Of a stretch of 64,000 bases of DNA, positions 2,475 to 63,594 are shown piece by piece. The DNA is taken from IMG/VR virus record IMGVR_UViG_3300035703_000027, positions 57,190 through 121,189 of that record; one strand, given 5' to 3'. Both the position numbers and the translations under genes were made by a program. The notes below the pieces were generated by a model. The model was not told the origin of the DNA. It searched no databases and was given only the letters and a program-made list of their open reading frames with translations. Origin of the DNA: a virus. How positions within the stretch are numbered: position 1 is the stretch's first letter; each line of letters begins with the position of its first letter.

Positions 2475-2504
2475 TCGCACGCTGCGCGCCTGCTGCGTGC
2501 AGGC

Positions 2505-2544
2505 GGCAATTCAGGCGCCGGCGGGCGTGCGGGGCTCTAGAATG
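2505..2544 (+). promoter_or_regulatory. Phage bipartite promoter, weaker copy (N27)
   Basis: CGGCAAT (2505-2511), 27 bases, then TAGAAT (2539-2544), 19 bases before the ATG at 2563. Compared with the consensus TGGCAA-N28-TANNNT it has one mismatch in the upstream box and a spacing one base shorter. Confidence 0.4.
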
Positions 2545-2562: not shown

Positions 2563-4848
2563 ATGCTGCTGGTCCCGGTTCGCTCATCCCTCTCGCTCTC
2601 GGCCTACCTGACGCTGCTCAAGGCCCTGATCCAGGTCAAGGCCCACACCCGCAAGGATGGGACGCGGGTCCAGGCGCACACGCGCAACATCCAGTCGAGG
2701 GCCGAACGCCGCGAGCTGGTCGAGGCCCTCGCCAAGAAGATGGGGAGCGGCGAGCACACGCGCCACGCCACCCTGGCGTCCGCGGTCGGCGCGGCGCGCT
2801 TCGCCTCGCGCGCCAACGGCAAGGCCGTGCACGTCTACGAGCACGCCGACGGCGGCTGGGTGGCGACGCACGACGAGACGCACACCGAGGGCCACGACGA
2901 GAAGATCGTGGCCCACAAGGGCAAGGCGCGGCTGCACCGGGCGGGCGAGGCCTCGCGCAGCCTGGCGCACCTCAAGGGTCCGATTGCCGAGCACGTCGAG
3001 AAGCCGTTTGTGCCCAAGGTCAAGCCGGCCCGCCCCAAGGCGGAAAAGAAGCCGGCCCCGACGCCCGTGGCCCCCGCCCCGGGCAAGGTGGACTTCGGCG
3101 CGGAGAAAACGGTCAAGGGGGAGACGCACGTCCCCGTGACGGTGGACGGGCAGATGACGCACGCCTTGACGAAGGACCGCCAGACGGGAGTCTGGGCGTT
3201 GCAGCGCGTGGACGAGCGCGACCACCAGGGGCCGGTCAAGATGACGCTGGTGCGGGAGGGGATGACCCGAAAGGAAGCCCAGCAGTACGCCGCCGCCCTC
3301 GCCGGGAACGATGCGGGCGAGCTGGCCCGCGTGCACCAGTACGATCGCGGCGTGCCGGTGTCGGAGATGCCGCAACTCAAGCAGATGCGGGATTTCTCCG
3401 CACTGCTTACTGGGCAGGATGGAGAGGGGCGCACCTGGTACACGCAGGGGTACTACCTCTCAACGGCCAATCAGGATGACTACCTCCTGCCAGGCGCCCA
3501 AGAGCAACCGATGGTGCGCAGTGCCGGTGTGGTGGATGAGTTCATCCCAGCCGCCACCACCCCGGTCCACCCGGTCGCCTTCAAGACCTCGCCGACCAAC
3601 GGCCGAACAGGCGCCGTCGTGTTCGACAACGGCGCCGTTGCAAGCGCCGAATACGTCCAGCGGCTGATGAAGCTGCACCCCGGGGCCTCCTGGCACTACG
3701 GCACCACCGCGACCTCGGTTGCCGGCGTCCCGATCAACGGCGTGGGCGACGGCAGCTTCCCGTTCGTGCTGAAGGACCGCCACGGCGCGAACGTCGCCAT
3801 GCTGATGCCGCTGAAAGCAGAGGCCGGCAAGGACGGCCTCAAGGAGCTGGCCGACCAGGTGGCCGCCGGCTACCGCCCGGCCAGCATAAAGCCCGAAAAG
3901 CCCGGATATGAGGGGCCGGAGGGTAAAGATATGACCGACGACAACGCAGCGGAGAGGAAGGCAGGCAGTGACCTCCGGGCCGCCGTGGCGGACAAGAACG
4001 GCGCGGTCGCGAAGGCACGCATCCGCCTGCACGACGACGTGGCGGACATCTACGCCGTCAAGCACCCCGACGGGCACATCACCGCCACCGTGCACTGGGT
4101 CGAAGGACAAAAGGCGCGCACTCAGCCCCACAACAGCTTCAACCTGGAGGGGTTCACGTCCAGCTTCAGCGGACCCAGGAAGTGGGACACCATCACGGCG
4201 TTCAAGCGCGACCTGGATCGCAAGTTCGGGGGGAAGGGCTACGTTCATCCGAACTGGCGCGACGCCCACTACGAAAGCGAGCTTGAGGTACGCGACTTCA
4301 GCGAGGAGCACGCCAGGGCCGTCGCGATCAAGGAAAAGCGGCGCAGGGCCGAAGCAGACGCCTACCGAGCAGGTGAGTCGGGTCGCAATCAAAGCCAGCA
4401 GTCCCGTCCCGTCAACTTGGCCGAGGAGTTAGCCAGGCAGGCAGCCGTGGCGACCGGCGATCGCGCGGACCTCAAGCACCCGGCCACGCGCAAGGCCGTG
4501 GTGGACGACCTTAAGAAGCTCGACGTGCACACCCTGGCGCCGCGGGCGCGGTGGAACAACATCGACCCCGACGTGACGGGCAAGCAGCTCACCGCGCGCG
4601 TCCAGCTCAAGCGGGCCGTGCCGCACCAGATGACGTACATCAACCCGAACACGGGCGAGAACCAGGGCCGTCTGGTCGAGCATGACGGCTACGATCTTCA
4701 GTGGCACCCCGATCGGGGCGTCTCGCTCAAGAACGACGATGGCAAGAAGGTCTGGTCCGACCCGGCGGCCACGAAGGACCCCGTGGCTGCCGTGAAGGCC
4801 GCGCTTCAGGCCGCCAACGCGCTGCCGGATATGACCTACAAGTCCTGA
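2563..4848 (+). CDS. Large hypothetical protein, possible virion/ejection protein
   Basis: A 761-residue protein. ATG 2563 is chosen because GGAGG lies six bases upstream; an earlier in-frame ATG at 2541 lacks a site. The N-terminus has a hydrophobic stretch, then a repeat-like basic motif (VKAHTRKDGTRVQAHTR) seen in assorted phage virion proteins. A Lys/Pro-rich linker (about 155-185) separates several apparent globular segments, with a second charged region near 600-630. No enzyme motif was found. It stands alone on the plus strand inside a minus-strand arm with its own promoter, so it is expressed as a single unit. A virion-associated or ejected role is a guess. Confidence 0.7.
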   Translation: MLLVPVRSSLSLSAYLTLLKALIQVKAHTRKDGTRVQAHTRNIQSRAERRELVEALAKKMGSGEHTRHATLASAVGAARFASRANGKAVHVYEHADGGWVATHDETHTEGHDEKIVAHKGKARLHRAGEASRSLAHLKGPIAEHVEKPFVPKVKPARPKAEKKPAPTPVAPAPGKVDFGAEKTVKGETHVPVTVDGQMTHALTKDRQTGVWALQRVDERDHQGPVKMTLVREGMTRKEAQQYAAALAGNDAGELARVHQYDRGVPVSEMPQLKQMRDFSALLTGQDGEGRTWYTQGYYLSTANQDDYLLPGAQEQPMVRSAGVVDEFIPAATTPVHPVAFKTSPTNGRTGAVVFDNGAVASAEYVQRLMKLHPGASWHYGTTATSVAGVPINGVGDGSFPFVLKDRHGANVAMLMPLKAEAGKDGLKELADQVAAGYRPASIKPEKPGYEGPEGKDMTDDNAAERKAGSDLRAAVADKNGAVAKARIRLHDDVADIYAVKHPDGHITATVHWVEGQKARTQPHNSFNLEGFTSSFSGPRKWDTITAFKRDLDRKFGGKGYVHPNWRDAHYESELEVRDFSEEHARAVAIKEKRRRAEADAYRAGESGRNQSQQSRPVNLAEELARQAAVATGDRADLKHPATRKAVVDDLKKLDVHTLAPRARWNNIDPDVTGKQLTARVQLKRAVPHQMTYINPNTGENQGRLVEHDGYDLQWHPDRGVSLKNDDGKKVWSDPAATKDPVAAVKAALQAANALPDMTYKS

Positions 4849-4900: not shown

Positions 4901-5566
4901 CTAGAAGCGCATCCCCACCCCGACAAAGGGGCCGTGCCCGGCGGGCGCCCAGCTCCCCTGGTAGCCCAGGGCGGCGAACACCTTGTCCCCCGCGGCGATC
5001 GCGAGGCCGGCCTGGTTGAGGTTGGCCTCCACGTCCAGGCTCACCTCCAGCGCGCCGGCCGCCTGGGGCAGCACGTGCCAGTCCGCGAGGGGCCGCAGCG
5101 GCGTGCCGCGCACGAGCTGCACGTCGAGCGCCACCACGCCCGGGAACGTGCCCGCGAGCACCCCGAGCCGGGCGTGGGCCTCGGGCGCCTGGGGCCCAGC
5201 CTGCATGGGCATGGCCTGCATCAGCGGGGCCGGGTGCACGGTGGTCCGGGTCTTGGTGACGATCTTGATCACCTCGCCCGCGGGGCCCGGGGGCAGCGTG
5301 GGCACCGCGGAGGGCTCGCCCGGCTGTGCTGGCATCCCGGGCGGGCGCCCCGGCACCGCGGGGGTCGCTGTCGCCACGTGGCCGCCGGCCGGCCGCACGA
5401 CCACCACCTCCGTCGTCGTCTGCGTCTCCACCCAGGGCGTCGCCACCGGCGTGGGCTTACCCACCGGCGCCACCGGGGTGGGCTTGTCGCACCCGACGTG
5501 CTGGCTGGCCCACGTCAGTACGCCCAGGACCACCGCGCCGGCCGCGCCGGCCTTCTTCTTCTCCAT
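4901..5566 (-). CDS. Secreted/anchored Pro-rich hypothetical protein
   Basis: A 221-residue protein starting at ATG 5566 (GAGGAGGGCGTC upstream). The N-terminus MEKKKAGAAGAVVLGVLTWA is basic then hydrophobic, a signal or anchor sequence. Cys26 follows but is not a canonical lipobox. Residues 27-110 are Pro/Thr-rich. The C-terminal half is beta-prone and ends ...GPFVGVGMRF, like an outer-membrane or beta-structured tail. Spanin-like or surface roles are possible. It has its own bipartite promoter at 5593-5633. Confidence 0.6.
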   Translation of the reverse strand: MEKKKAGAAGAVVLGVLTWASQHVGCDKPTPVAPVGKPTPVATPWVETQTTTEVVVVRPAGGHVATATPAVPGRPPGMPAQPGEPSAVPTLPPGPAGEVIKIVTKTRTTVHPAPLMQAMPMQAGPQAPEAHARLGVLAGTFPGVVALDVQLVRGTPLRPLADWHVLPQAAGALEVSLDVEANLNQAGLAIAAGDKVFAALGYQGSWAPAGHGPFVGVGMRF

Positions 5567-5592: not shown

Positions 5593-5633
5593 AGCATAGG
5601 CCCCGCCAGCCTCGCCGGGCGCCCGCGTTGCCA
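5593..5633 (-). promoter_or_regulatory. Phage bipartite promoter
   Basis: Minus strand: TGGCAAC (5627-5633), exactly 28 bases, TATGCT (5593-5598), then a Shine-Dalgarno site and the ATG at 5566. No TTGACA-like box sits at the usual -35 distance. Confidence 0.7.
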
Positions 5634-7416: not shown

Positions 7417-8213
7417 GTCGATGCCTCGTCAGGGGTGTGCCAGTAGGCGAACGCCACCGGCACGCACTCGCGCGCCTTGAACGCCAGGCACTCGTAACCC
7501 ACGTCGCTCCCGGGGTTCGGCAGGCCCGCGGCGCACGTGCGGCATGCCAGGTCGCCCTTCTTGCGCCCGGCCACCTTGCAGACCGGACAAGCCCCCGTGG
7601 CCTTGCCCGTGTGGGGGGCCGCGAAGGACACCCCGCAGACCGTGCACTGCGCCACATGCTGCGAGGGCGGGGCGGACGGCTTGCGCAGCACCTTGGGGAT
7701 GGCCCCGCGGGGCTCGGGCTGCTTCTCGGGTGCCTTGCCACGGGCGCGCGCGAGCCCTTCGGCCAGGCTGGTGGCCTTGAGGGCCGCGAGCAACTGCGCC
7801 CGCTCCGCCTCCGCAGCCTGCGCGCGGCGTTCAAGCTGCGCGCACGTCGCTTCCAGGCTGCTCGCGCGCAGCGCCACGTCCCGCATCGGGGGGCCGGCCT
7901 GCGCCTTCAGGGGCGCCAGCTCGGCCTCTGCTGCGTCCGCGCGGCGCTTGTGCTGCTCGCATGCTGCGTCCATGTCGCGCAGGCGCTGCTCCAGCAGCTC
8001 GACCTCGCGCTCCTTCAGGCCCAGCCGGGCCCGCAGCACGCCGGCGCCGTCCGGGGCCTCGGTCAGCGCGGCGAGGCGCCCCTGCGCCTCGATGGCGCGC
8101 ACCTCGGCCGCCGCCGCCATCCGCACCACGTCGCACAGCTCGCGCAGGTGCAGGTGGGCGCGCTCCGACCAGTAGACGATCGCGCGCGTCACCTCCGTGT
8201 GGGCGTCAGCCAT
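7413..8213 (-). CDS. Coiled-coil protein with C-terminal zinc ribbon
   Basis: A 266-residue protein. ATG 8213 overlaps the end of the PP-loop gene by eight bases. Residues 1-150 are heptad-like (LKEREVELLEQRLRDMDAA; LEATCAQLERRAQAAEAE). The C-terminal third holds CTVCG, CPVCK and CRTC pairs, i.e. zinc-ribbon-like knuckles, ending near YECLAFKARECVP. It may bind nucleic acid or scaffold the neighbouring PP-loop enzyme. No named family. Confidence 0.65.
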   Translation of the reverse strand: MADAHTEVTRAIVYWSERAHLHLRELCDVVRMAAAAEVRAIEAQGRLAALTEAPDGAGVLRARLGLKEREVELLEQRLRDMDAACEQHKRRADAAEAELAPLKAQAGPPMRDVALRASSLEATCAQLERRAQAAEAERAQLLAALKATSLAEGLARARGKAPEKQPEPRGAIPKVLRKPSAPPSQHVAQCTVCGVSFAAPHTGKATGACPVCKVAGRKKGDLACRTCAAGLPNPGSDVGYECLAFKARECVPVAFAYWHTPDEAST

Positions 8214-9078
8214 CGACGGCGCCCCCCTTGATGACGAGGCCGTCGGCGCTGTCGTCTCCGCCAGCGCCGCCGTCGCACGTGAACGGGCCGCACGAATACT
8301 GCCCGTCGGCGGCATCGTCGAGCAGCGACAACTGCCAGCGGTGGCTGCCGTTCACCACCTCGTCGAGGGGCCGCAGCGCGCCTGTCATGTACATGGGATC
8401 GCGCCCGAGCTTGGCGCGCCGCTCGTTGATCATCCGCTCAAGCGCCACGGACTTCGCAAACAGGTCCGGGTGCGCATCATAGATGCGGCGCCACTCCTTG
8501 ACGGTGTGGAAAGGGCAGAAAAAGCACGACGACTTGGGCGGGACGGGCAGCCCGGCATCACGAATGACAGCCTTGCAGTCCTCCCGATTCAGCTCCAGGT
8601 CGATCAGCGGGTGCGCGTTGCGCAGGTGCGAAAGCTGGCTCGGCTTCATTCTCTGGATCTCGTCCACGCTGATGCCGATGCCGACCGTCCCGGGGTTGGT
8701 CTTTGTCGCCCCATGCGCCCGCATCCACTTCGAGACAACCCGGATCTTAAAGTCGGCCGTGCAGCTTCGATTGCCGGGTGCCCCCGACTGGAGCCGCATG
8801 GGGATGTCGATGCTGCGCTCGGTGCGGTGCAGCTTCCCCCACAGCGTCTCGCGGGTGCCGTCCCGCCGGGTCTTGTGCAGCTCGATGAGGTCAAGCCCGT
8901 GCTTGGCGGCGAAGGGCACCGCCACCTCCCGCAGGTAGACCATCGTCTCGGGATACTCGCTGTCATCCCCCACGTTGGCAAACAGGAAGGTCCGGTAGTC
9001 GATCCGCCCCTCGGCGGCGAGCACCAGGGCGGCCATGGACTGAACGCCACCACCGAAGCTGAACGCCTTGGGAATCAT
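8206..9078 (-). CDS. PP-loop ATPase of the PAPS reductase-like superfamily
   Basis: A 290-residue protein starting at ATG 9078 (GGAGG six bases upstream). Residues 7-16 (SFGGGVQSMA) form the PP-loop of adenylyl-transferring enzymes in the PAPS reductase/adenine alpha hydrolase fold. SCTADFKIR and the late SCFFCPF add Cys residues that could carry sulfur or a metal. Many phages encode such proteins. Proposed roles range from sulfur assimilation to nucleic-acid thiolation, and the sequence does not decide. It starts a cluster with the downstream coiled-coil genes and has its own bipartite promoter. Confidence 0.8.
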   Translation of the reverse strand: MIPKAFSFGGGVQSMAALVLAAEGRIDYRTFLFANVGDDSEYPETMVYLREVAVPFAAKHGLDLIELHKTRRDGTRETLWGKLHRTERSIDIPMRLQSGAPGNRSCTADFKIRVVSKWMRAHGATKTNPGTVGIGISVDEIQRMKPSQLSHLRNAHPLIDLELNREDCKAVIRDAGLPVPPKSSCFFCPFHTVKEWRRIYDAHPDLFAKSVALERMINERRAKLGRDPMYMTGALRPLDEVVNGSHRWQLSLLDDAADGQYSCGPFTCDGGAGGDDSADGLVIKGGAVDG

Positions 9079-9116: not shown

Positions 9117-9157
9117 GTCGTACAGGGAAAAACACACCCCGTCACGCACTTTTGCCA
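9117..9157 (-). promoter_or_regulatory. Phage bipartite promoter, weaker -10
   Basis: Minus strand: TGGCAAA (9151-9157), 28 bases, TACGAC (9117-9122), 38 bases before the ATG at 9078. The upstream box and spacing match exactly; the -10 box lacks the final T. Confidence 0.5.
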
Positions 9158-13669: not shown

Positions 13670-13864
13670 CTACGCGAGCCCCGCCCGAACGGCCGCCCGG
13701 AGTTTCATCCTGGCCACCGCCTGGTTGATTCCAGCGGCGAGGGCCGCGGCGTCCACCGGGCCCGTCACCACCACCTCGCGCGCGCCCGCCCGGATCACCA
13801 CGCTCTGCTGGCCCGTCAACGGGCACACCAGCGCCTTCGCCCGCGGCGCCTCTTGCTGCTGCAT
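13670..13864 (-). CDS. Small hypothetical protein
   Basis: A 64-residue protein. ATG 13864 has AAGGAGGACGAT before it; more upstream in-frame starts lack a site. It reads MQQQEAPRAKALVCPLTGQQ and then a beta-strand/helix pattern (SVVIRAGAREVVVTGPVDAAALAAGINQ). It lies 70 bases downstream of dnaN and may share its transcript. No family recognised. Confidence 0.6.
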   Translation of the reverse strand: MQQQEAPRAKALVCPLTGQQSVVIRAGAREVVVTGPVDAAALAAGINQAVARMKLRAAVRAGLA

Positions 13865-13934
13865 ATCGTCCTCCTTCGCATCGGGACCGGCAACCAAGCG
13901 CCGGCCCCCCGTCCCCATCCGTGTGGCGGGGCGC

Positions 13935-15047
13935 TTATGCGAGGTTGAGCGGCATGATCAGCGCGAGGGGGCCCGGGTTGTCCGGGTTCGTCACGAACAC
14001 CGGCCGCAGCGGCTCGGAAAACCCCAGCCGCGCCGCCGTCCCGGGCAGCGCGCGCAGGCTGTCGCGCAGGTACTGGCCGTTGAGCCGGATGCTGAAGGGC
14101 GCACCGCCCCAGTCGCAGTCCACCTGCTCCTGGCCGTCGCCCGAGGCCTCGCTGCCCACCTGCACGGTGAGCGCGTCCGCAGCCAGCGTCAGCGTCAGGA
14201 TGCGCGCGTCGAGCCCCGTGGTCACCACGAGCGCGCGCTCCACGCACGCCAGCAGCTCCGCCCGCAACACGTCCACCTCGATGGGCGACGAGGGCGGGAT
14301 GATGGCGGCCACGTTGGGGTAGCCGCCTGCCGCCAACCGGCTCGTCAGGTAGCGGTTGCCCACCGCAAAGCCGACCCGGTTGTCGTCCAGCGCCACGATG
14401 CGCACCTCCGCGGGCGCGCAGTCCTTGATGAGCCGGCCCACCTCCACCATCACGCGGCGTGCCACCACGATCTCGAACGCACCCGGCCCCATGCCCGTCG
14501 CGCGGTAGCGCGCGAGCCGCGAGCCGTCGCACGTGTAGATGGTCAGCTCGTCGTTCGCCAGCGTCAGGCTCGCCGCCGACTTGAAGTCCACGGCCGTCTC
14601 GTCTGCGCAGTAGAGCGTTGAGGCCAGCGCCTCTGCCAGCACGTCCGCCGGCAGCGTCACGCCCCCCTCCGCCGGCGCGTCGGGCACCGCGGGGTAGTCC
14701 TCGGGCGACAGCCCGCGCAGCGTGTACCGGCTGCGCGCGCACGTCAGCCGCGTGCCCGTGCCGTCGCTCTGGAGCGTCAGCTCGGCCTCCGGCGAGGCCG
14801 TGAGCTTGTCCACCAGCGCGCTGAAGGTGCTCCACGGCAGCGTGGCCGCGCCGGCCGCGAGCACCTGGCCGCTCAGCTCGGCGCGCAGCGTCAGGCCGAG
14901 GTCGCTCGCGCGGAACACGATGCGGCCGGACATGTCTGCTTCGAGCACCACGTGCTCCAGGATGGACATGATGCGCGTCCGCCCGGCCACCGGCTTCAGG
15001 TCGCGGACGGCCTCGCGCAAGGCGAGGCCCTTGAGGATGATGTGCAT
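13935..15047 (-). CDS. dnaN: DNA polymerase III beta subunit (sliding clamp)
   Basis: A 370-residue protein of normal bacterial clamp length. The start is ATG 15047 (GAGGTGTCCC upstream); an in-frame ATG 20 codons upstream lacks a site. It shows the three-domain clamp pattern: MHIILKGLALREAVRDLKPV, the middle domain around VTLPADVLAEAL, and a C-terminus ending PVFVTNPDNPGPLALIMPLNLA, where bacterial clamps end in M-P-hydrophobic. It would tether a polymerase to DNA, but no phage polymerase is in the window, so it may recruit the host replicase. Full clamps are rare in phages of this kind. It is regulated through a promoter plus terminator-like leader. Confidence 0.92.
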   Translation of the reverse strand: MHIILKGLALREAVRDLKPVAGRTRIMSILEHVVLEADMSGRIVFRASDLGLTLRAELSGQVLAAGAATLPWSTFSALVDKLTASPEAELTLQSDGTGTRLTCARSRYTLRGLSPEDYPAVPDAPAEGGVTLPADVLAEALASTLYCADETAVDFKSAASLTLANDELTIYTCDGSRLARYRATGMGPGAFEIVVARRVMVEVGRLIKDCAPAEVRIVALDDNRVGFAVGNRYLTSRLAAGGYPNVAAIIPPSSPIEVDVLRAELLACVERALVVTTGLDARILTLTLAADALTVQVGSEASGDGQEQVDCDWGGAPFSIRLNGQYLRDSLRALPGTAARLGFSEPLRPVFVTNPDNPGPLALIMPLNLA

Positions 15048-16665: not shown

Positions 16666-16959
16666 TTAGCCGCAGCAAACCATGACCCAGCGGTGCAGCT
16701 TGTCGTAGCTGCCATAGAGCGCCTTCGGGCAGCAGGCCGCCACGGCCTGGGCGATGTCGCGAAGGTGCTCGCAAGACGCGGCGGCGTACAGGTCGCCCGC
16801 CAGGATTGCCGCCACGTCGTCGTCCGGGTAGAGCCCGGCAACCAAGTAGTCCGCGATCGCCTCGGCCGCCTCGGGCCAGGCGGTTCCCAGGGCCCGGATC
16901 GCCGCGGCGCCCTTGGCGGCGTCGGCGCGCAGGCTGGCGCCGGTGGTTCCCTGTTTCAT
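16666..16959 (-). CDS. Hypothetical protein, paralogue of 16029-16334
   Basis: A 97-residue protein with the same core as its neighbour: WPEAAEAIADYLVAGLYPDDDVAAILAGDLYAAA...DIAQAVAACCPKALYGSYDKLHRWV. It is more Cys-rich (CCP, VCCG C-terminus). The start ATG 16959 has GAAAGG upstream. Role unknown. Confidence 0.65.
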   Translation of the reverse strand: MKQGTTGASLRADAAKGAAAIRALGTAWPEAAEAIADYLVAGLYPDDDVAAILAGDLYAAASCEHLRDIAQAVAACCPKALYGSYDKLHRWVMVCCG

Positions 16960-17019
16960 CGTGTGGGCCTTTCGTGTCGGGTGGGGTGTCTGCCCGCCTT
17001 CATCCGTGCCCCGGCGCGA

Positions 17020-17352
17020 TTATGCGCGGCGCGCTGCGCGATCGGACCGGATGAGCGCGAGCACGGCGGCGCGCTCGGCGTCGCTCAGCGGGCGCGAGGC
17101 GCCCCGGTCGTCCTCGGCCACGAACACGAGCGGGCCGGCGAGCCAGTCGCCCGCGGCGTGCCACATCATGTTGGCGCGCAGCCCGAGCACCTTGGCGGCC
17201 GGGTTGCCCCAGGCGAACACCTGCGGGTACTCCGGCAGCCACGGGCCGAACACGTCGAGGTCCCCGCCCACGAGCTGCTGAAGGTCGCCGTACTTGCGCG
17301 GCAGCGGGATGAGGTCGGGGTTTGCGCCGGGGCGCAGGTGAATCGCTTCCAT
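17020..17352 (-). CDS. DUF3846-like protein
   Basis: A 110-residue protein starting at ATG 17352. The pattern LQQLVGGDLDVF...QVFAWGNPAAKVLGLRANMM...DWLAGPLVFVAED resembles DUF3846 proteins (inference from pattern), found in plasmid and phage accessory regions near antirestriction genes. The C-terminus (LSDAERAAVLALIRSDRA) is helical. It is the first gene of the leftward arm, driven by one half of the divergent promoter pair. Confidence 0.6.
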   Translation of the reverse strand: MEAIHLRPGANPDLIPLPRKYGDLQQLVGGDLDVFGPWLPEYPQVFAWGNPAAKVLGLRANMMWHAAGDWLAGPLVFVAEDDRGASRPLSDAERAAVLALIRSDRAARRA

Positions 17353-17377
17353 CGGGCGGGCCTCTCGGGTCGGCACA

Positions 17378-17418
17378 ATTTTAAGCACGCGCGTGGCAAT
17401 TCCCCGATCCGGTTGCCA
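17378..17418 (-). promoter_or_regulatory. Bipartite promoter, leftward half of divergent pair
   Basis: Minus strand: TGGCAAC (17412-17418), exactly 28 bases, TAAAAT (17378-17383), 25 bases before the ATG at 17352. It overlaps the rightward promoter, and the two upstream boxes form an inverted repeat TGGCAA-N12-TTGCCA. Confidence 0.65.
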
Positions 17419-17434
17419 CACCCCGCCGGATACT
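17394..17434 (+). promoter_or_regulatory. Bipartite promoter, rightward, for the virion operon
   Basis: TGGCAAT (17394-17400), exactly 28 bases, GATACT (17429-17434). The likely transcription start is at about 17441, where the GTG of the protease gene begins. Confidence 0.65.
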
Positions 17435-17440
17435 CGGCAT

Positions 17441-18247
17441 GTGGTTCGCGCAGAGTTCGATGGTCGTGATTTCCGCTTGACCCTCCCCGCCACCTTGGTG
17501 AAGGGGGGCGGCAAGGCCGCGCCCGTCGGCGGGCGCCTGGTCGAGGGCGTCGCAAGCACCCCGGCGCAGGATCTCCACGGCGAGCGCGTCGAGCCGTCCG
17601 GGCTCGACCTCACCTACTTCGAGCGCCACGGGCGCATCAACTGGGACCACGGCAAGGAGCCCAGCTCCATCATCGGCGAGCCCGTGGACTGGACATGCAC
17701 GCCCAAGCAGTTCTACCTGCACGCGCGCCTGTACGAGAACGTGAAGCGGGCCGAGGACGCCTACGCGCTGCTGAAGGCTGGCGCGCAGCTCGCGTGGTCC
17801 GTCGAGGGCCGCGTGACCGAGCGCGACCCGGACGACCGGCTGCACGTCACGGGCGCCCTGGTGGTGAACGTGGCGCTGACGCCCAACCCGGTCAACCCGG
17901 AAACCACCGCGTTCCTGACGGATCGCGTGGCAAAAAGCGTCACCGAGGGCGCAGCCCTGGCACAGAATCAAGCCGGGGCCAGCTCCGACCTCGCACCCCT
18001 GGTGGTGCAGGCGCTGGAGGGCGCCCCGCAGAACCTTCTGACCGTGCACCTGGCGCTGGCGCCCACCTGCGGCTGTATGGCCTGGGACGCGGACGGCATG
18101 GGCTTCGTGCACGGTTACGCGGGAGCTGTGGCGCACTTCAGCCGGTGCTGCGGTGCGCCCATCGACCAGGCGGCAGCCCTGGCACATCGTTATCGCGCGG
18201 TTGCCCGTGTCACCGGGCGCCAGTTACGGAGGGAGAACAACCCATGA
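17441..18247 (+). CDS. Prohead (capsid maturation) protease
   Basis: A 268-residue serine protease that cleaves capsid and scaffold proteins during head maturation. The block VEGVAST...DLHGERVEPSGLD..YF..HGRINWDHGKEPSSIIGEP fits the caudoviral prohead protease family, with His in WDHG as the likely catalytic His. GTG 17441 is the only in-frame start downstream of the promoter -10 that keeps the domain, and it coincides with the expected +1, so the message may be leaderless. The C-terminal 80 residues (HLALAPTCGCMAWDADGMGF, CC) are unusual. Overlaps the next gene by four bases. Confidence 0.8.
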   Translation: MVRAEFDGRDFRLTLPATLVKGGGKAAPVGGRLVEGVASTPAQDLHGERVEPSGLDLTYFERHGRINWDHGKEPSSIIGEPVDWTCTPKQFYLHARLYENVKRAEDAYALLKAGAQLAWSVEGRVTERDPDDRLHVTGALVVNVALTPNPVNPETTAFLTDRVAKSVTEGAALAQNQAGASSDLAPLVVQALEGAPQNLLTVHLALAPTCGCMAWDADGMGFVHGYAGAVAHFSRCCGAPIDQAAALAHRYRAVARVTGRQLRRENNP

Positions 18248-32564: not shown

Positions 32565-32605
32565 TGGCAAAGCGAGGCGGCGGCGCGCCCCGGCCCCGCT
32601 AGACT
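32565..32605 (+). promoter_or_regulatory. Phage bipartite promoter
   Basis: TGGCAAA (32565-32571), exactly 28 bases, TAGACT (32600-32605), followed by a GGAGG site and ATG 32623. A fresh promoter inside the virion operon. Confidence 0.7.
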
Positions 32606-32622: not shown

Positions 32623-33600
32623 ATGCCGGCGCAAACCGACGAGTCGAACGACGCGCGCGAGATGCGGGCGTTCACGCTGGAGCTTCGCCGCCCCGGCGAG
32701 GACCCGGCGTATCTCACGCTGCCCATCAACCCGCAGAGCCTGACGATCACGCACCCGTCGCGCAACGCCCCGCAGCACACGCTCGGCGGCCACTACATCG
32801 AGGCGTGGGGCCCGGGCCTGCCGTCCATCACGCTGGAGGGGCACACGGGGTACGCGCCCCGCAGCCCGGTCGAAGGCATCGAAGCGCTGGACGGCTACCA
32901 GGCATTTCGGGCGCTGCTCGACATGCTCAGGCTTTACGACGTGGCGACGACCCGCCAGCGCAACGTGGTGGTCAAGCCCGGCGCGGAGCTGGCGCAGCTC
33001 TTTCTTCACTACTGGGAGGAGGACGAGCACTGGGAGGTCGTGCCGACGGGCTCGGACGCCCTGCGGCGCTCGCGCAGCGCGGACTCCCCGCTGCTGTTCC
33101 GCTACCAGCTCTCGCTGACAGGGGTCGCGCCCGCGACGGTAAGCGACGAGCTGTCGATGCTGCTCGGGTTGCCGTCGCTCGACAACCTGCTCGGCAACCT
33201 CACAAAGGACTGGGGCGAGGTGGGCAAGTTCCTCGGGGCCCTCGGGGCCGGGGCCTCCGCCGCGGCCAAGGTTGCCAAGGAATACGCGGACAAGGCCAAA
33301 GGCTTGATGACCAAGGCCCAGAAGGTCATCCAGACCGGCACGAAGGCCATCAACGCCCTGCTTGCACCCGTGCGCGCGCTGGTAAAGGAGGGCCGCGCAC
33401 TGCTCGCGCAGGCCTCGCGTGTCGTCAACTCCTTGGCGGCGTTCGGGGGCACGCTTAGCCGGGCGGAGGCGGCGCTCGGCATCCGGGCGCTGCGCTGCTT
33501 CAACAACACCTTCGCCCAGATCGCGGCGTGGGGCCGCAAGTTCGTCTCGCCCATCACGGACGGCTGGGCGCGCTACCGCAAGTCGTATGAGCGGTGCTGA
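32623..33600 (+). CDS. Baseplate/tube initiator-like protein
   Basis: A 325-residue protein. The N-terminal 170 residues (LPINPQSLTITHPSRNAPQHTL, PGLPSITLEGHTGY, YQLSLTGVAP) match the domain that in many phages and contractile machines accompanies LysM proteins at the tube/baseplate junction. The C-terminal half is a long helix (KVAKEYADKAKGLMTKAQKVI). The LysM-gp25 fusion is encoded next. Role by analogy. Confidence 0.65.
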   Translation: MPAQTDESNDAREMRAFTLELRRPGEDPAYLTLPINPQSLTITHPSRNAPQHTLGGHYIEAWGPGLPSITLEGHTGYAPRSPVEGIEALDGYQAFRALLDMLRLYDVATTRQRNVVVKPGAELAQLFLHYWEEDEHWEVVPTGSDALRRSRSADSPLLFRYQLSLTGVAPATVSDELSMLLGLPSLDNLLGNLTKDWGEVGKFLGALGAGASAAAKVAKEYADKAKGLMTKAQKVIQTGTKAINALLAPVRALVKEGRALLAQASRVVNSLAAFGGTLSRAEAALGIRALRCFNNTFAQIAAWGRKFVSPITDGWARYRKSYERC

Positions 33601-44522: not shown

Positions 44523-44563
44523 TGGCAAAGGGCGCGCAGCGGCGCGCGGGCGCCCCTTATGCT
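44523..44563 (+). promoter_or_regulatory. Phage bipartite promoter
   Basis: TGGCAAA (44523-44529), exactly 28 bases, TATGCT (44558-44563), 20 bases before ATG 44583. It starts the last fibre-module transcription unit. Confidence 0.7.
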
Positions 44564-44582: not shown

Positions 44583-45116
44583 ATGCCAAACGGGCTCATC
44601 ACGGATCTGGGGAAGCGCGCCACGGCCTACATCTACGCGGAGGCGGTGACGCATGGGGCGTTCGGGCGGCCGGCCTGGCCGGACCTGTTCAGCCCGCCGG
44701 CGGAGCGCTACAGCGCCACGGCGCTGCTTGACGAGTTCGGGCGGGCGCCGGTGCGGGCGGTGCGCTACCTGATGGAGGACCCGGCCGGGACGGTGTACTA
44801 CCGGCAGCCCGACGGGGTGGTCGAGGGGCCTTATCGGTACGCGACGGTGGCCGAGGAAGCGGCCGGGGCGGCCCAGGTGCCGCCGGTGGCCCCCTCGGGC
44901 TTCGTGGAGTTCGAGTTCGCGATTCCCGCCAACGCCGCGATCGGCGAGGTGGTGGGTGAGATTGCCCTGGTGATGGGCGGGGCGACGAGCGCGCCCGAGT
45001 GGGCCACGCCCGCCCAGGTGACGGCGGCGGGCGTGCCCATCTACCTCATCACGGTGCCCGCCAAGGCCATCGAGGCCAACGAGGAGATCGTGCGGCGGGT
45101 CGCCATCCGCGTGTAG
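44583..45116 (+). CDS. Tail structural protein
   Basis: A 177-residue protein starting at ATG 44583. MPNGLITDLGKRATAYIYAEAV begins a beta-rich domain; FVEFEFAIPANAAIGEVVGEIALVMGG and IEANEEIVRRVAIRV resemble phage tail proteins that bind neighbouring fibre components. It precedes the very large structural gene by eight bases. No enzyme motif. Confidence 0.6.
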   Translation: MPNGLITDLGKRATAYIYAEAVTHGAFGRPAWPDLFSPPAERYSATALLDEFGRAPVRAVRYLMEDPAGTVYYRQPDGVVEGPYRYATVAEEAAGAAQVPPVAPSGFVEFEFAIPANAAIGEVVGEIALVMGGATSAPEWATPAQVTAAGVPIYLITVPAKAIEANEEIVRRVAIRV

Positions 45117-48100: not shown

Positions 48101-49321
48101 GTGACGGCCAACGCGCGCGGCGAGTTCTACACGACGGTGACGCGCACCTGGAACGCCAGCACCATCGTCACCGCGACGGGCCCGATCGGGTTTGCGTCGC
48201 AGCCCATCAACGGGTCCGTGCAGTGGGTGCGGACGGACCCCGCGGCACAGACGTTTGCGACGGAGGTGCCGATCGACATCGCGGGCGTGGATCTGTACTT
48301 CACGGCCAAGGACACCTCGGCGTCGCCCAAGGACGTGGTGGTGGGGCTGCGGCGGGTGCTGGTGGGCTTCCCGACCCAGGAGATGATCCCCGTGACGGTC
48401 AAGACGCTCAAGGCGAACGAGATCGCCGTGAACGGGACGGCCACCCGGGTGGAGTTCGACTTCCCCTACAGCATGGCGGCCGGGGAGGCCCTCGCGCTGG
48501 TGGTGGCCTCGGAGTCTCCGGCCTACCGGCTTCAGGTCGCGCAGCTCGGCAAGACGAACCTCGGCGTGGGCGGCGGCACCATCACGCGCAACGCGTTCGG
48601 GGGCGGCGTGCTGCTGCTGAGTTCGGACAACCGGACGTGGAGCGCGGTCCAGGACCAGGATCTCCGGTTCCAGATTCTCTCGGCGGACTACACGACGGCG
48701 ACGCGGCGCGAGCTGTACTTCGAGGTCAAGGCGTACCCGGACGGCATCACGAGCTTCGAGTTCGAGGCGCCGCACGTCGTCACGTCGGGCGCGACGCTCC
48801 AGTGGGAGTACAGCACGAACCCGACGGCCGCGGCGCCGACGTGGACGCCGTTCACGCCGGGCTTCCCGGGGCCGGTGAACGAGGTGCGGCTCGGGGCGGT
48901 GGCGACCAGCTTGCAGGTGCGCGCGTGGGCGCAGACGGCCGTGCCTGTGGCGGGGCGGTTCGTGGCGGGTGTCGCGATCGAGACGAGCAAGTGCTCGCTG
49001 CGGGCCTACCGGCCGGCGACGGCCTCGGTGTACGTCCAGGTCCAGACGCCTCTGCTGGCGAGCACGACGACGGCCAAGGCCTTCGGCAAGAGCTTGCTGC
49101 CGGCCGGCACGCAGGTGCAGGCCTACGCGAGCAACGACGACGGCACGACATGGGTGGAGGGCACGCTGGCGTCGAGCCGGGCGCTGGCGGACGGCCTGAC
49201 GGAGCAAGAGTGGTCCTTCACGTTCGCGAGCGCGGGCACGGCCTTCCGCGGGCGGCTGGATCTCGTCGGGACGGCGACGGCAAGCCCGGAGGTGGAGGAG
49301 ATCAGCTTCGTCGTGACGTGA
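45125..49321 (+). CDS. Giant tail/fibre structural protein
   Basis: A 1398-residue protein, the largest in the window, with TAGGAGCCACC before ATG 45125. The N-terminus is acidic-basic (IQRDDFDPTRKELAIAWSG); a long beta-rich body follows. Residues about 575-700 carry the same module as the 40039 gene (RVATTAALPANTRSGNVL...RVLVRNEVNGAHNGIYTV...TRAADAD). Later domains include TVSAVVWGSPRASFDAALTI (Ig-like) and C-terminal carbohydrate-binding-type beta folds. A short coiled coil (MQEQIDRLAYNVAQLS) lies near 818. Probably a long or side tail fibre or baseplate-anchored protein. Confidence 0.7.
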   Translation: MTTIQRDDFDPTRKELAIAWSGDRDLGDHELRRLGRIEDFKLSRLGGAVFPEGYVVESGVPVVAPVTNLAYPSNGFAAWEDVDGLVVTAGYAPDRAGVVGAATRLVGAAGQASRLDLDLSVLSAGAGGPDRAMFVSNRMVFSLDILGDGVASMRLAIWDGVTEHTATHVPTTTWARYAVVRERPASEALPDTLVLRIYPGLAPLSGSIVVAHAQLEALPEGLLLVPSVYVPTTTAPVTAPGNRVSIGASLVYAGGLPRPVPAATLTFDPAKVTGVDTLYAELAERYILAMVDADLDNPVTGRPGNDSVREETRWVTTDTTNPVVPADVLATNPQYRSRLAVPVYQFDRATNTLSEVAKYSKVAVDDTLGLLPGDRITPRSIPEDRLDVKATEGQSGLLAATARRMRNLSGGFVVPQVGTTPTITQNMGVTTKVQLKVDPLDGYTPDGRAHYLDTPQVVEAPLQASTALREDEGHTYYATYTSYTLAKQPVVAIEEVAGYYEVTRTITRGAAAHGADALPDTPVFEIVEVKQGATVYTPPSAGVAGDYMQVGDSISWASEGGGPAVGAVYLNPVRVATTAALPANTRSGNVLTASANGSLPAVDGVALAVGERVLVRNEVNGAHNGIYTVTALGGTGAAWSLTRAADADTGAELPPGIAVSATEGTANGGASFALVASDPVTVNTTVLAWARASREPAAGSSYLVRYRYRRVWSPSEYTFTSTGLTFNADAPKPVEPLPFSVSYRYGQDRIDLVLIGGGGLRLEQGVPSDNPTPYTLATDELPLWEVRVGYAQAAVTFRPRFTVGVPMAGLMAMQEQIDRLAYNVAQLSASSSLRDRLGTLKASITDPFLDARQIDLYHPAAVAAASLARVAEGRLKMARTGYPAAGTPAILATIAGSGAATTSMALRLRGSWAGLPFTLGTPASLGNHQYSTSVSVNPYSNADPIPAVLTVSAVVWGSPRASFDAALTITGTKFQPNEDGIVIAADGVTIATVTANARGEFYTTVTRTWNASTIVTATGPIGFASQPINGSVQWVRTDPAAQTFATEVPIDIAGVDLYFTAKDTSASPKDVVVGLRRVLVGFPTQEMIPVTVKTLKANEIAVNGTATRVEFDFPYSMAAGEALALVVASESPAYRLQVAQLGKTNLGVGGGTITRNAFGGGVLLLSSDNRTWSAVQDQDLRFQILSADYTTATRRELYFEVKAYPDGITSFEFEAPHVVTSGATLQWEYSTNPTAAAPTWTPFTPGFPGPVNEVRLGAVATSLQVRAWAQTAVPVAGRFVAGVAIETSKCSLRAYRPATASVYVQVQTPLLASTTTAKAFGKSLLPAGTQVQAYASNDDGTTWVEGTLASSRALADGLTEQEWSFTFASAGTAFRGRLDLVGTATASPEVEEISFVVT

Positions 49322-49323
49322 CC

Positions 49324-49364
49324 TGGCAAAAGGCGCGCCGCACGGTCGGGGTCGGGTCTACGCT
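49324..49364 (+). promoter_or_regulatory. Phage bipartite promoter for lysis genes
   Basis: TGGCAAA (49324-49330), exactly 28 bases, TACGCT (49359-49364), then AAGGAGGGCGC and ATG 49397. It separates lysis genes from the fibre module. Confidence 0.7.
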
Positions 49365-49396
49365 GGATCCGCACCGAGGCCAAGCAAGGAGGGCGC

Positions 49397-49804
49397 ATGC
49401 TGCCGGAGGGTACGGTCGTGGGGCTGATTCAGACGATCGGCGCGCAGGTGGGCGATTTCACGCCCTACTGGGGGCTGCTGGGGCTCAAGGGGCTCGACGT
49501 GGTGACGGGCCTGGCGCGGGCGGTGGCGCAGCGGAACATCGAGCCGCGCCGGCTGCTGGCGCTGCCGGCGTCCATCGGCGTCATCACGGTGGCGATCGGG
49601 CTGTGTTTGGGGCTCAAGGCCATCGACCCGGCGTTCGGGCCGGTGGTGGCGGCGGTGATGGTGGCGATGGGGACCGCGGAGGGCGCGAGCATCGCGCAGA
49701 ACGTGCACGACTGGTACGTGGCGCGCGGCGAGGTGCCGCCCGCGTGGTTGCAGGCGGCGACGGCCGTCATCAAGACGATGGAGGTCAAGAAGCCCGATGC
49801 CTGA
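49397..49804 (+). CDS. Holin (phage_holin_4-like)
   Basis: A 135-residue membrane protein starting at ATG 49397. WGLLGLKGLDVVTGLARAV matches the start of the D-x-x-TG holin family, followed by two hydrophobic segments (LLALPASIGVITVAIGLCL; AFGPVVAAVMVAMGTAEGA) and a charged C-terminus. It would permeabilise the membrane to release the endolysin encoded next, with which it overlaps by eight bases. Confidence 0.75.
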   Translation: MLPEGTVVGLIQTIGAQVGDFTPYWGLLGLKGLDVVTGLARAVAQRNIEPRRLLALPASIGVITVAIGLCLGLKAIDPAFGPVVAAVMVAMGTAEGASIAQNVHDWYVARGEVPPAWLQAATAVIKTMEVKKPDA

Positions 49805-50477
49805 CGACGTGTTGCAGCTCGACGCCCGGGGACAGTTCGGCAAGAAGGGCAGCGCCAAGGTGGGCAAGCACACGGTGCTGCTCGCGGCGGAGAACGACCA
49901 GGCCGGTCAGGCGATGGGCGACGTGGAGGGGCTGTGCTTCCACTGGAGCGCCGGGCGCCGCATCACGGCCTGGGATGGCTACCACGGCGGCGTGGCGGCC
50001 TCGCCGGACGGCCTGGTGCCCATCGTGGTGCAGTGCCTCGGCTGGAACCAGAAGGGCAAGCATTTGTGGGGCCGCAACGGGTCCTACTGGGGCATGTCGC
50101 TGTTCGGCTGCAAGGACATGGGGTGGGCGGGCGACCGTCGCATCACGTGGCCGGGGCCCGAGGCGCCGACGCCCGAGATGTTGGAGGCGCTGGCCGTCTA
50201 CGCGGCGGAGGTGTGCGCCTGGAAGAACCTCGACCCGCGGGGCAGCCATGAGGCGCCGCACCTGGTGCGGCAGGGGGAGCGGCTGGTGCCCTCGGGGCGG
50301 ACGATTCGCATGCCCAACCTGAGCGACCACAAAGACTGGGCCGAGAAAGACGGTTACGCGAGCGACCGCGGGGACATCGGGGCCTACAAGGCGCCGCTGT
50401 TCGCCCGCATCGTGGCGGTGTACACGGAGCTGAAGGCCAACAAGCGGCAGTTCCGGCACCAGGCGCTGCTCAAGTAG
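49797..50477 (+). CDS. Endolysin, amidase-2-like
   Basis: A 226-residue predicted N-acetylmuramoyl-L-alanine amidase. GLCFHWSAGRRITAWDGYHGG corresponds to the 'HHTAG' zinc-ligand region, and LSDHKDWAEKDGYASDRGDIG to the second ligand region. No signal peptide or wall-binding domain is evident, so export would rely on the holin. Located between holin and small lysis-region genes. Confidence 0.75.
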   Translation: MPDDVLQLDARGQFGKKGSAKVGKHTVLLAAENDQAGQAMGDVEGLCFHWSAGRRITAWDGYHGGVAASPDGLVPIVVQCLGWNQKGKHLWGRNGSYWGMSLFGCKDMGWAGDRRITWPGPEAPTPEMLEALAVYAAEVCAWKNLDPRGSHEAPHLVRQGERLVPSGRTIRMPNLSDHKDWAEKDGYASDRGDIGAYKAPLFARIVAVYTELKANKRQFRHQALLK

Positions 50478-50882
50478 ATGGGCGCCGGGGGCAGCGAGGG
50501 GTCGCCCTGCGCGCTGTGCGGGCGGGTGTTCGCGGCGCGTGCGCGCCACCAGCGGTTTTGCAGCACGCCGTGCCGGATGCGGGCGCGGTTCGTGGTGGGG
50601 ATCGCGCCGGCGCGGCCGGAGCGGGCGCCGGTGGCCTACGCGTGCGCGGGGTGCGGGACGATCTACCCGAGCAAGGCGCAGGTGGCGGCCTGTGTGGAGT
50701 GTGAGCGGCGGGAGCATGCGCTGGTGCGGGTGGTGCCCGGGCCGGACGCGTGCGTGCAGTGCCTGCACTGGGTGGTGTACCCGGGGGCGGACTACGGCTA
50801 CGCGTGCGCGCAGGGCCGGTTCTTGGCGTGCCGGCCGCACCGGCCGGGGGCGAAGCCTTACGCGCCGCGCGCTGGCAAATAG
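50478..50882 (+). CDS. Zinc-finger protein
   Basis: A 134-residue protein starting immediately after the endolysin stop. CALCGRVFAARARHQRFCSTPCRMRAR is a compact zinc finger of the 'CxxC...CSxxCR' kind; CAGCGTIY, CVECERR and CVQCLHW add three more Cys pairs. Likely DNA or RNA binding. It is unusual inside a lysis cluster. Its last codons contain the TGGCAAA box of the next promoter. Confidence 0.65.
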   Translation: MGAGGSEGSPCALCGRVFAARARHQRFCSTPCRMRARFVVGIAPARPERAPVAYACAGCGTIYPSKAQVAACVECERREHALVRVVPGPDACVQCLHWVVYPGADYGYACAQGRFLACRPHRPGAKPYAPRAGK

Positions 50883-50913
50883 GGGCGGGCGCCTGCGGGC
50901 GCGCGGCTATACT
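50873..50913 (+). promoter_or_regulatory. Phage bipartite promoter
   Basis: TGGCAAA (50873-50879), exactly 28 bases, TATACT (50908-50913), then CAGGGGAGGTTCAC and ATG 50935. Confidence 0.7.
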
Positions 50914-50934: not shown

Positions 50935-51303
50935 ATGGCAGAGCAGTTTCGCGCCCGCGACGTAGGCGGCTCCGGCCGCACGCAGCTCAGTCCCGAGGGG
51001 TGGGCCCAGCAGGGCGTGGTGATCGGGGATCGCTACTGCTACGCGTGGGAGGGGGCCGTCACGACGGCGGTCACGTCCTTCAAGTTTTATGAACCCGTCC
51101 GCACCTTGGTGGTGTGGTCGCCGGTGGCGGTGTACGTGGCGCGCACGGCGCTGGCGCTGGACGTGGCGGGCAACGCCAAGAGCCGCGACAGCCGCCTGCT
51201 GGTGCCGGCGAACACGCTGCGGGAGCTGCCCTGGTACTACGACGAGGTGAGCGTGAAGGCGGCCTCGGGGGCCGGTGAGTGCTACATGGAGGGCAAGCTC
51301 TGA
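50935..51303 (+). CDS. Small virion or lysis-region protein
   Basis: A 122-residue protein starting at ATG 50935 with GGGGAGG. Beta-rich (FYEPVRTLVVWSPVAVYVARTALALDV) with few charged runs. Its own promoter and position between the zinc-finger and second membrane gene suggest strong late expression; small decoration and head proteins look like this. No family recognised. Confidence 0.6.
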   Translation: MAEQFRARDVGGSGRTQLSPEGWAQQGVVIGDRYCYAWEGAVTTAVTSFKFYEPVRTLVVWSPVAVYVARTALALDVAGNAKSRDSRLLVPANTLRELPWYYDEVSVKAASGAGECYMEGKL

Positions 51304-58172: not shown

Positions 58173-58212
58173 TGGCAAGAAACCGTCCGACGCACCCCCG
58201 CACCCCTATCAT
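58173..58212 (+). promoter_or_regulatory. Phage bipartite promoter (N27)
   Basis: TGGCAAG (58173-58179), 27 bases, TATCAT (58207-58212), then CCAAGGAGCC and ATG 58238. The only clear right-arm copy. Confidence 0.55.
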
Positions 58213-58237: not shown

Positions 58238-58678
58238 ATGCGGTTTTACCTTGCCACCTCTTCCACCCAGGTCGATCGCGCGGATGCCGTGGCCGACGCC
58301 CTGATCGCCTGCGGGTTCACGCAGGCCTACCGCTGGACCGACACCGTGCGGGACTACGGGACGCCCGAGCAGCCCAACGGGCGCCTGCTGCAAGGCGTGG
58401 CGCTCGACGAGCTGCACCACGTGCAGGAGGCCGACGTGCTGGTGGTGCTGGAGCCGGCCGGGCCCGGCACGCATGTGGAACTCGGCGCCGCGCTCGCGGC
58501 CCGGGTGCCCGTGGTGCTCGTGGGGCCCGGCTTCGCCGGCCACAACCCGTTCTACTACCACCCGCTGGTGACGTGGGTGCAGGATGCCCCGGCGGACCTC
58601 GACGTGGCCGAGACGCTGGCGCCCCTGCTGCGCTTCCTCGTGTCGCCGGCGTTTTCATACAGGAGGGTGCACGCGTGA
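58238..58678 (+). CDS. Nucleoside 2-deoxyribosyltransferase-like protein
   Basis: A 146-residue protein starting at ATG 58238. MRFYLATSSTQVDRADAVADALIACGF and ADVLVVLEPAGPGTHVELGAALAARVPVVLVGPGF follow the deoxyribosyltransferase family layout, including the conserved E-x-G-x-A segment (VELGAAL) with its likely catalytic Glu. Such enzymes swap bases on deoxyribonucleosides or hydrolyse them. In phages they may serve salvage or nucleotide modification; that role is inferred. Confidence 0.65.
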   Translation: MRFYLATSSTQVDRADAVADALIACGFTQAYRWTDTVRDYGTPEQPNGRLLQGVALDELHHVQEADVLVVLEPAGPGTHVELGAALAARVPVVLVGPGFAGHNPFYYHPLVTWVQDAPADLDVAETLAPLLRFLVSPAFSYRRVHA

Positions 58679-62570: not shown

Positions 62571-62989
62571 TGACGCTGGATCTGGAGCCCATCAAGCGGC
62601 GCAGGGCGGCCGTCGGCCCCGCGTGGGGCGGCGGGGTGGTGCAAGTCGGGGACTACTGGTGCGCGTGCGGCCCGGCGAGCCGGGGCGACGCGGCGGGCGT
62701 CGCCCGCGTGGTTGCCGAGCTGGAGTTCTTGCTGCACGCGTCCGGCGACGTGGCGGCGCTGGTGGGCGAGGTGGAGCGGCTGCGCGCCCGGGAGGGTCGC
62801 GGGCGCCGCGGTGCGGGGGCGCTCGTCCACGCGGCAGCGGCGGCGGACGACTACGACGCGGTGGCCGGCGCCCTGGTGGAGGCGCTCGACACGCTGGACC
62901 GGCTGCACGGGCTGCTGCGGGCCGGCCGCGCGACGGCCGCGCTGGCGGTGGCCGAGGCGCACCGGCGCGCGGTGGGGGGCGCACCCTGA
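62570..62989 (+). CDS. EVERLR-family-like protein
   Basis: A 139-residue protein; ATG 62570 overlaps the previous stop. The start (MTLDLEPIKRRRAAVGPAWG) and the later ASGDVAALVGEVERLRARE match the small family with copies at 12341, 12687, 13198 and 63619, but the body is longer with a Cys pair (WCAC). The C-terminus is helical (VEALDTLDRLHGLLRAGRATAALAVAEA). Confidence 0.6.
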   Translation: MTLDLEPIKRRRAAVGPAWGGGVVQVGDYWCACGPASRGDAAGVARVVAELEFLLHASGDVAALVGEVERLRAREGRGRRGAGALVHAAAAADDYDAVAGALVEALDTLDRLHGLLRAGRATAALAVAEAHRRAVGGAP

Positions 62990-63594
62990 TGGGCAACCGT
63001 CGCTGGACGCCCGCCGAGGATGCGGTGCTGCGCGCCAAGTGGCACGTGCTGACGATCGCGGAGCTGTCCGCGCAGATCGACCGGACGCAGGCCGCGATGG
63101 AGCGCCGGGCCTTGCTGCTCGGGCTGCACGCCAAGCAGGTGCCGGGGCTCTACACCTTCGCGGAGGTGGCGCGCGCGCTTGGGGTGTCAAAGCAGACGGC
63201 CATCATGTACGCTCGCCGGGGCCTGATTCGCACGGTCGGGCAGCGCTACCAAAAGTTCGTGACGGTGGCCGAGCTGGAGCGCGTGGTGACGCGGCTGCGT
63301 CGCCGGGAGCCTGGCGCAGGCACCCTGACGACGGCGGAGGTAGCGCGACGCCTGGGCTACTCGGGCGCGACCGTGATGCGGCTCGCGCAGTTCGGGGTGC
63401 TGCGGGCGGTGAAGCTGCGCGGGGCATGGTGCATCGACCCGGCGGGCGTGGCCGATCTAGAGCGCCGGCTGCGCGCGACGGGCGCGGCGCGCCTGCGGTG
63501 GGCCGACCTCTTGCCGGAGGTGGCCCCTGCCTACGCGCGCCGGTTGGCGCGGCTGCGCAAGGCGCGCGCGGACAGGCGGTTGTCCCGTGTTTGA
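62989..63594 (+). CDS. Myb-like plus double MerR-type HTH protein
   Basis: A 201-residue protein. Residues 3-45 (NRRWTPAEDAVLRAKWHVLTIAELSAQIDRTQAAMERRALLLG) are a Myb/SANT-like domain of the type in GcrA-like and phage regulators. Two MerR-like HTH segments follow: YTFAEVARALGVSKQTAIMYARRGLI and LTTAEVARRLGYSGATVMRLAQFGVL. A basic C-terminus ends it. A triple DNA-binding architecture suits a transcription activator and is a candidate for the factor that recognises the TGGCAA box. Confidence 0.7.
   Translation: MGNRRWTPAEDAVLRAKWHVLTIAELSAQIDRTQAAMERRALLLGLHAKQVPGLYTFAEVARALGVSKQTAIMYARRGLIRTVGQRYQKFVTVAELERVVTRLRRREPGAGTLTTAEVARRLGYSGATVMRLAQFGVLRAVKLRGAWCIDPAGVADLERRLRATGAARLRWADLLPEVAPAYARRLARLRKARADRRLSRV

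Follow-up and report, generated by a model that had tools for sequence, protein, structure and literature searches.

Our analysis suggests that the short interval between the two gene arms of this virus is likely to hold two back-to-back promoters of a phage-specific class, here called class A, which would probably start transcription in both directions without acting as a unique master switch. The window, i.e., the whole 64,000-nucleotide stretch of DNA analysed, covers positions 57190-121189 of a 121,189-bp virus record and is 70% GC. It belongs to a contractile-tailed bacterial virus whose virion proteins (head protease, scaffold, major capsid and tail sheath, and the portal too) are SPO1-like. 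Read directly, positions 17378-17434 are ATTTTAAGCACGCGCGTGGCAATTCCCCGATCCGGTTGCCACACCCCGCCGGATACT, and both of the elements that a sequence-only reading had placed within these 57 bases are found there. The leftward element, TGGCAAC-N28-TAAAAT, runs from 17418 down to 17378 and the rightward element, TGGCAAT-N28-GATACT, from 17394 to 17434. The boxes lie inside and the -10-like ends outside, and the upstream halves of the two elements overlap by 25 bp (common stretch 17394-17418). The same reading had set the pair between a left arm and a virion operon, which agrees with the genes on either side: a leftward gene for a DUF3846 protein heads a left arm that carries a sliding clamp and ThyX, and a rightward operon encodes protease, scaffold, capsid and sheath. 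The parts of the site and its two neighbors are given here, with genes called by a small codon-usage script, so that gene starts are approximate.

17020 to 17352, minus strand: first leftward gene, DUF3846 protein (Pfam PF12957, E 3e-9; gene call)
17378 to 17383, minus strand: -10-like TAAAAT of the leftward class A element (read from the sequence; exact class spacing of 29 to TGGCAA)
17394 to 17399, plus strand: TGGCAA box of the rightward element (matrix score 13.8; an orthologous element stands before the protease gene of the relative G001)
17413 to 17418, minus strand: TGGCAA box of the leftward element (scores 16.4 on a matrix trained on other sites)
17429 to 17434, plus strand: -10-like GATACT of the rightward element (first base weak, A2 and T6 kept)
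17441 to 18247, plus strand: head maturation protease gene, which opens the virion operon (PHROG 1028, E 7e-33; gene call)

The case for a promoter class begins with its spacing. When every TGGCAA of the record was listed and TAnnnT was sought downstream, a spacing of exactly 29 was found 11 times in the 121,189 bp against 0.04 expected, and all other spacings from 10 to 59 gave four cases in total (0.04 expected per spacing); the reversed control pattern had no match in the record. A class A matrix, from whose training set the tested site had been removed, returned 16 matches scoring at least 15 and 12 scoring at least 17 in the record, compared with 0.8 and 0.15, respectively, in simulated sequence. 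Alignment of 16 sites leaves two conserved blocks only, TGGCAA(A) and TAnRMT followed by GG (consensus TGGCAAa, 28 bp, [c]TAnRMTGG), and in the spacer of these 16 sites there is no -35 element and no conserved position at -36 to -31. Because the element recurs, lacks a -35 and is found again in a relative, its sequence features very probably mark a phage-specific promoter class. A search for TGGCAA-N28-CTAYGMTGGG across the viral contigs of the collection gave 41 loci that were set aside as apparent chance matches, being mostly single copies in mostly AT-rich DNA with no excess at the spacing, and a literature search for the TGGCAA box found no relevant paper.

Class A sites occupy intergenic gaps of 50-90 bp, often begin within ten bases of the preceding stop codon and mostly end 17-40 bases before the next start. 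Downstream lie the portal, tail genes, the protease-capsid-sheath operon, the sigma-like gene and a series of genes for very large proteins that have DarA_C and LPD1 domains. Since most of its members stand ahead of the portal, the capsid operon, tail genes and genes of the DarA type, the class is probably late, as judged from gene content only. Leftward sites are located at 5633 and 9157 as well as at 17418, and the elements of the window beyond the pair are the following.

2504 to 2543, plus strand: class A element with spacing 28, before the gene at 2563 (matrix)
5593 to 5633, minus strand: left-arm class A element preceding gene 4901-5566 (spacing count, matrix)
9117 to 9157, minus strand: left-arm class A-like element preceding gene 8206-9078 (score 16.6)
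32565 to 32605, plus strand: class A element before tail gene 32623-33600 (spacing count; conserved in G001)
44523 to 44563, plus strand: class A element before gene 44583-45116 (spacing count; conserved in G001)
49324 to 49364, plus strand: class A element before gene 49397-49804 (spacing count, matrix)
50873 to 50913, plus strand: class A element before gene 50935-51303 (spacing count, matrix)
58173 to 58212, plus strand: class A element with spacing 28, before gene 58238-58678 (spacing count, matrix)

As a separate observation, eleven mostly large proteins have a related N-terminal module, KALIQVKAHTRKDGTQVRAHTRNIQSRAERKELV..., and most have a class A element of their own (record genes g24, g26-g29, g31, g35, g38-g40 and g62, the last at window 2563-4848). 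The module, which also occurs internally in g29 and g31, is possibly a tag for injected or internal virion proteins. One of the carriers, g35 (L016:14974-19998), has Hint and homing-endonuclease domains, i.e., an intein, within an SNF2-related protein. Elsewhere in the record, g12 (L015:9768-10481) encodes a Mom-family protein, a match that suggests DNA base modification.

Within the site, the score of the leftward half lies in a range (at least 15) for which 0.8 hits per genome are expected from the site-free matrix, and that of the rightward half in a range (at least 13) for which 3.1 are expected; by our arithmetic, the chance of a match of at least 13 in this 88-bp gap on one strand is about 0.001. 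The predicted starts are at about 17371 leftward and about 17441 rightward, some 70 bp apart. The DUF3846 gene starts 25 nt beyond the leftward -10, and the protease GTG lies 7 nt past GATACT with no visible ribosome site, which is a leaderless geometry. Since the rightward start would coincide with the protease GTG and no ribosome-binding site precedes that codon, the protease message is predicted to be leaderless. It is conceivable, though doubtful, that only one of the two promoters works and that the other box-to-hexamer match is a by-product. The rightward GATACT is weak as a -10, fitting the TAnnnT core at A2 and T6 only, and leaves no ribosome-binding leader, points that also weigh against the pair as a whole, and the leftward TAAAAT, which does fit the core, differs from the class consensus TAYGMT. 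However, both halves have the box, the spacing and the -10 core, the leftward one with its score of 16.4, and the rightward element is kept in the relative. That the interval is instead an RNA hairpin, terminator or other structural element appears extremely improbable, as its mild folding tendency (z -1.7) is unexceptional, no T-run terminator was found at the interval, and a promoter would account for the constant spacing and the placement ahead of genes.

Conservation was assessed in G001, the one close relative found, a 157-kb record that was reached by a capsid protein alignment search and whose major capsid protein is 53% identical. No relative came from single-protein searches with the capsid or the portal; a search with the sheath pair led back to G001 alone among viral contigs and gave no match among genome contigs, and a sigma-pair search found no further member. 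In this relative, TGGCAA-N28-TAnnnT occurs four times and the N29 form once, any other spacing has at most one match, and six matrix matches score at least 17 against 0.45 expected. Its class A sites precede the homologues of the protease, g99, g113, g47 and the sigma-like gene, and a weaker element precedes its portal gene; class A is absent upstream of the homologues of g115, g118 and g131. At the protease gene, whose product is 48% identical, the hexamer is TACACT, followed by the same CGG that follows GATACT here. The gene to the left of the G001 protease also appears to be leftward, and no second class A element overlaps the protease promoter there. In this one comparison, class A as a whole and the rightward promoter have been kept and the overlap has not. 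Aeromonas ST4 and Bordetella PHB04 are more distant SPO1-like phages (major capsid protein 26% identical), and no class A sites were found in the stretches of them that were read.

The symmetry of the site invites another explanation. Of the dyad described in the sequence-only reading, the inverted hexamers are present but the 12-base spacing is not, as the site reads TGGCAA-N13-TTGCCA. This perfect dyad has one copy in the window, and as a recurring operator it was rejected on that ground. Its inverted arms extend to 7 bp (GTGGCAA/TTGCCAC), a form that would suit an operator bound by a dimeric repressor, in which case transcription would come from ordinary promoters elsewhere. We consider this very unlikely, as every other class A site has a single box, the recurring spacing is from box to -10 and not from box to box, and a consensus scan for a sigma-70 promoter, with a TTGACA-like -35 lying 15-19 bp away from its -10, had no match in 16900-17700.

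In the mechanism that we propose for the promoter pair, a factor would bind TGGCAA at about -46 to -41 and bring RNA polymerase to the TAnnnT -10. The earlier suggestion that only one polymerase could occupy the site at a time is consistent with its geometry: with about 35 bp of DNA per polymerase between the predicted starts, simultaneous full binding is unlikely, and two polymerases would compete for the short common DNA. The further suggestion that a single switch here sets the balance between the arms fares less well. An exclusive two-way switch, in which a polymerase or regulator at the dyad picks either the left arm or the virion operon, could draw on the overlap, the geometry and the dyad itself, and strongly activated bidirectional promoters of Escherichia coli do compete (PMC12825309). 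We nevertheless judge it distinctly unlikely. Because both elements carry the same box, one activator or sigma factor would raise both directions together and would not choose between them. Neither would 17378-17434 be a single control point, since further class A sites lie in both arms and a second promoter-like class, class B, is found in the left arm; moreover, the overlap is absent in G001 and the dyad is unique. Mutual exclusion need not set the balance either, since the E. coli pairs show no interference at basal activity and compete only under strong activation (PMC12825309).

Class B has the form CGCATAAA-N13-GGATAGGG, with all eight core matches at spacing 13; it usually lies 65-71 bases before a start and often has GGGCAGACACCC downstream. 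The class is present in the left part of the record, and weaker versions of it lie within the left arm at 17026 and 13941, because of which the left arm would have entry points of its own. The nearest element is about 350 bp from the site, on the left arm side. On G001 the class B matrix gave no excess.

Record 2578, 4338, 5505, 8588, 9703 and 11348, plus strand: class B (matrix)
Record 51941 and 57484, minus strand: class B (matrix)
Window 295, minus strand: class B (matrix)
Window 13912 to 13941, minus strand: class B element before leftward gene 13670-13864 (score 17.8)
Window 16997 to 17026, minus strand: class B CGCATAAT-N13-GGATGAAGG before the next leftward gene (matrix 10.9, weak alone; class spacing, the usual start distance of 67 and the common downstream GGGCAGACACCC)

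In our reading, then, the site consists of two late promoters under common regulation that may interfere with each other. The box could be bound by g42, the sigma-70-like protein of the phage, or by an activator that the phage supplies to act together with the sigma factor of the host. A different regulator had been put forward earlier:

62989 to 63594, plus strand: HTH_17 / excisionase-family protein (profile match)

This product is unlikely to read class A, being an excisionase-type helix-turn-helix protein for which tblastn found no match in G001, where the box persists. A better candidate is g42, a 614-aa protein found in both phages and encoded outside the window (record 48490-50334); we offer its reading of class A as a hypothesis. 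Sigma70_r3 (PF04539) scores above cut-off in g42 and in its G001 counterpart, g42 matches RpoD_Cterm at E 1e-7, and its nearest PDB sequences are sigma factors, including SigA chains; sigma factors also rank top among its fold matches, which are supportive only as the model is poor (pLDDT 56). Its homologue in G001 (E 4e-18) forms part of a 2155-aa open frame (93587-100054, minus strand, in L148) that has a tag-like N-terminus, a sigma-70-like region and, judged by eye, SNF2-helicase-like motifs further along. The alignment of g42 is restricted to regions 3-4.1, with a long insert before the putative 4.2 helix, and the region 2 profile PF04542 had no match on g42 at E up to 1; the alignment of the G001 protein to TIGR02980 (E 1.7e-5) extends through region 2. 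After the insert, a helix-turn-helix-like block, IsVSeVyrRvGlkP, is kept in both phages and is at most suggestive of region 4.2, with no profile match there. The class A-like element before the sigma-like gene scores 11.4 (weak) in this record and 21.5 in G001, and tblastn of g42 against named phages found nothing. In a bolder proposal, which we regard as unlikely, class A would be read by a divergent sigma-70-like protein of the phage that carries an insert ahead of its final DNA-binding helix and, in the relative, is joined to a helicase. The upstream box that it reads would lie one helical turn farther away (28-29 bp, not 17), and two such holoenzymes would compete back to back at 17378-17434 between replication and virion genes.

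These findings give an uncultured SPO1-like phage lineage a readable gene-control map with two fixed-spacing promoter classes, together with a concrete candidate for the factor reading one of them. If it is true that a sigma-like protein reads the box at 28-29 bp, the known sigma-70-type geometry would be extended, and the overlapping divergent pair would provide a compact natural test of polymerase competition.

Among known systems, sigma-54 promoters (-24/-12) have a TGGCA-like upstream box but were rejected as a model, as GG-N10-GC is absent (there are 18 bases between the box's GG and the GC that comes next) and the second element here is TAnnnT, 29 bp away. Many large phages redirect the host polymerase via sigma factors (PMC7824862). 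The present virus is like those with sigma-70-family factors (SPO1 gp28 and gp33/34, and jumbo-phage factors) in its SPO1-like virion proteins and its encoded sigma-like protein, and unlike them in that the G001 homologue of g42 appears to be fused to an SNF2-type helicase and the box spacing is 11-12 bp longer than that of -35/-10. The bacterial bidirectional promoters described by Warman, Grainger and colleagues are likewise divergent and built on pseudo-symmetrical DNA where polymerases would clash, but they have one common -10 and starts usually 10-23 bp apart (PMC12825309). Here the -10s are separate and 45 bp apart at the outer edges (17378-17383 and 17429-17434), with predicted starts about 70 bp apart, and a promoter with a shared -10 was ruled out accordingly. 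P2 late promoters (Ogr) and T4 middle promoters (MotA) have a -10, no -35 and a common upstream box. Class A resembles these and Mu Pm (Mor) in its good -10, absent -35 and upstream box common to many promoters, and it has the recurrent, fixed-distance box without a -35 by which activator-dependent phage promoters are recognized. It differs in having a single TGGCAA at a fixed 28-29 bp from the -10, a box unlike theirs in sequence and position, and no homologue of a known activator was found. Mu Pm strictly requires Mor (PMC4287176). By analogy with Mor, a separate activator working with the host sigma factor would be as likely to read class A as g42, or likelier.
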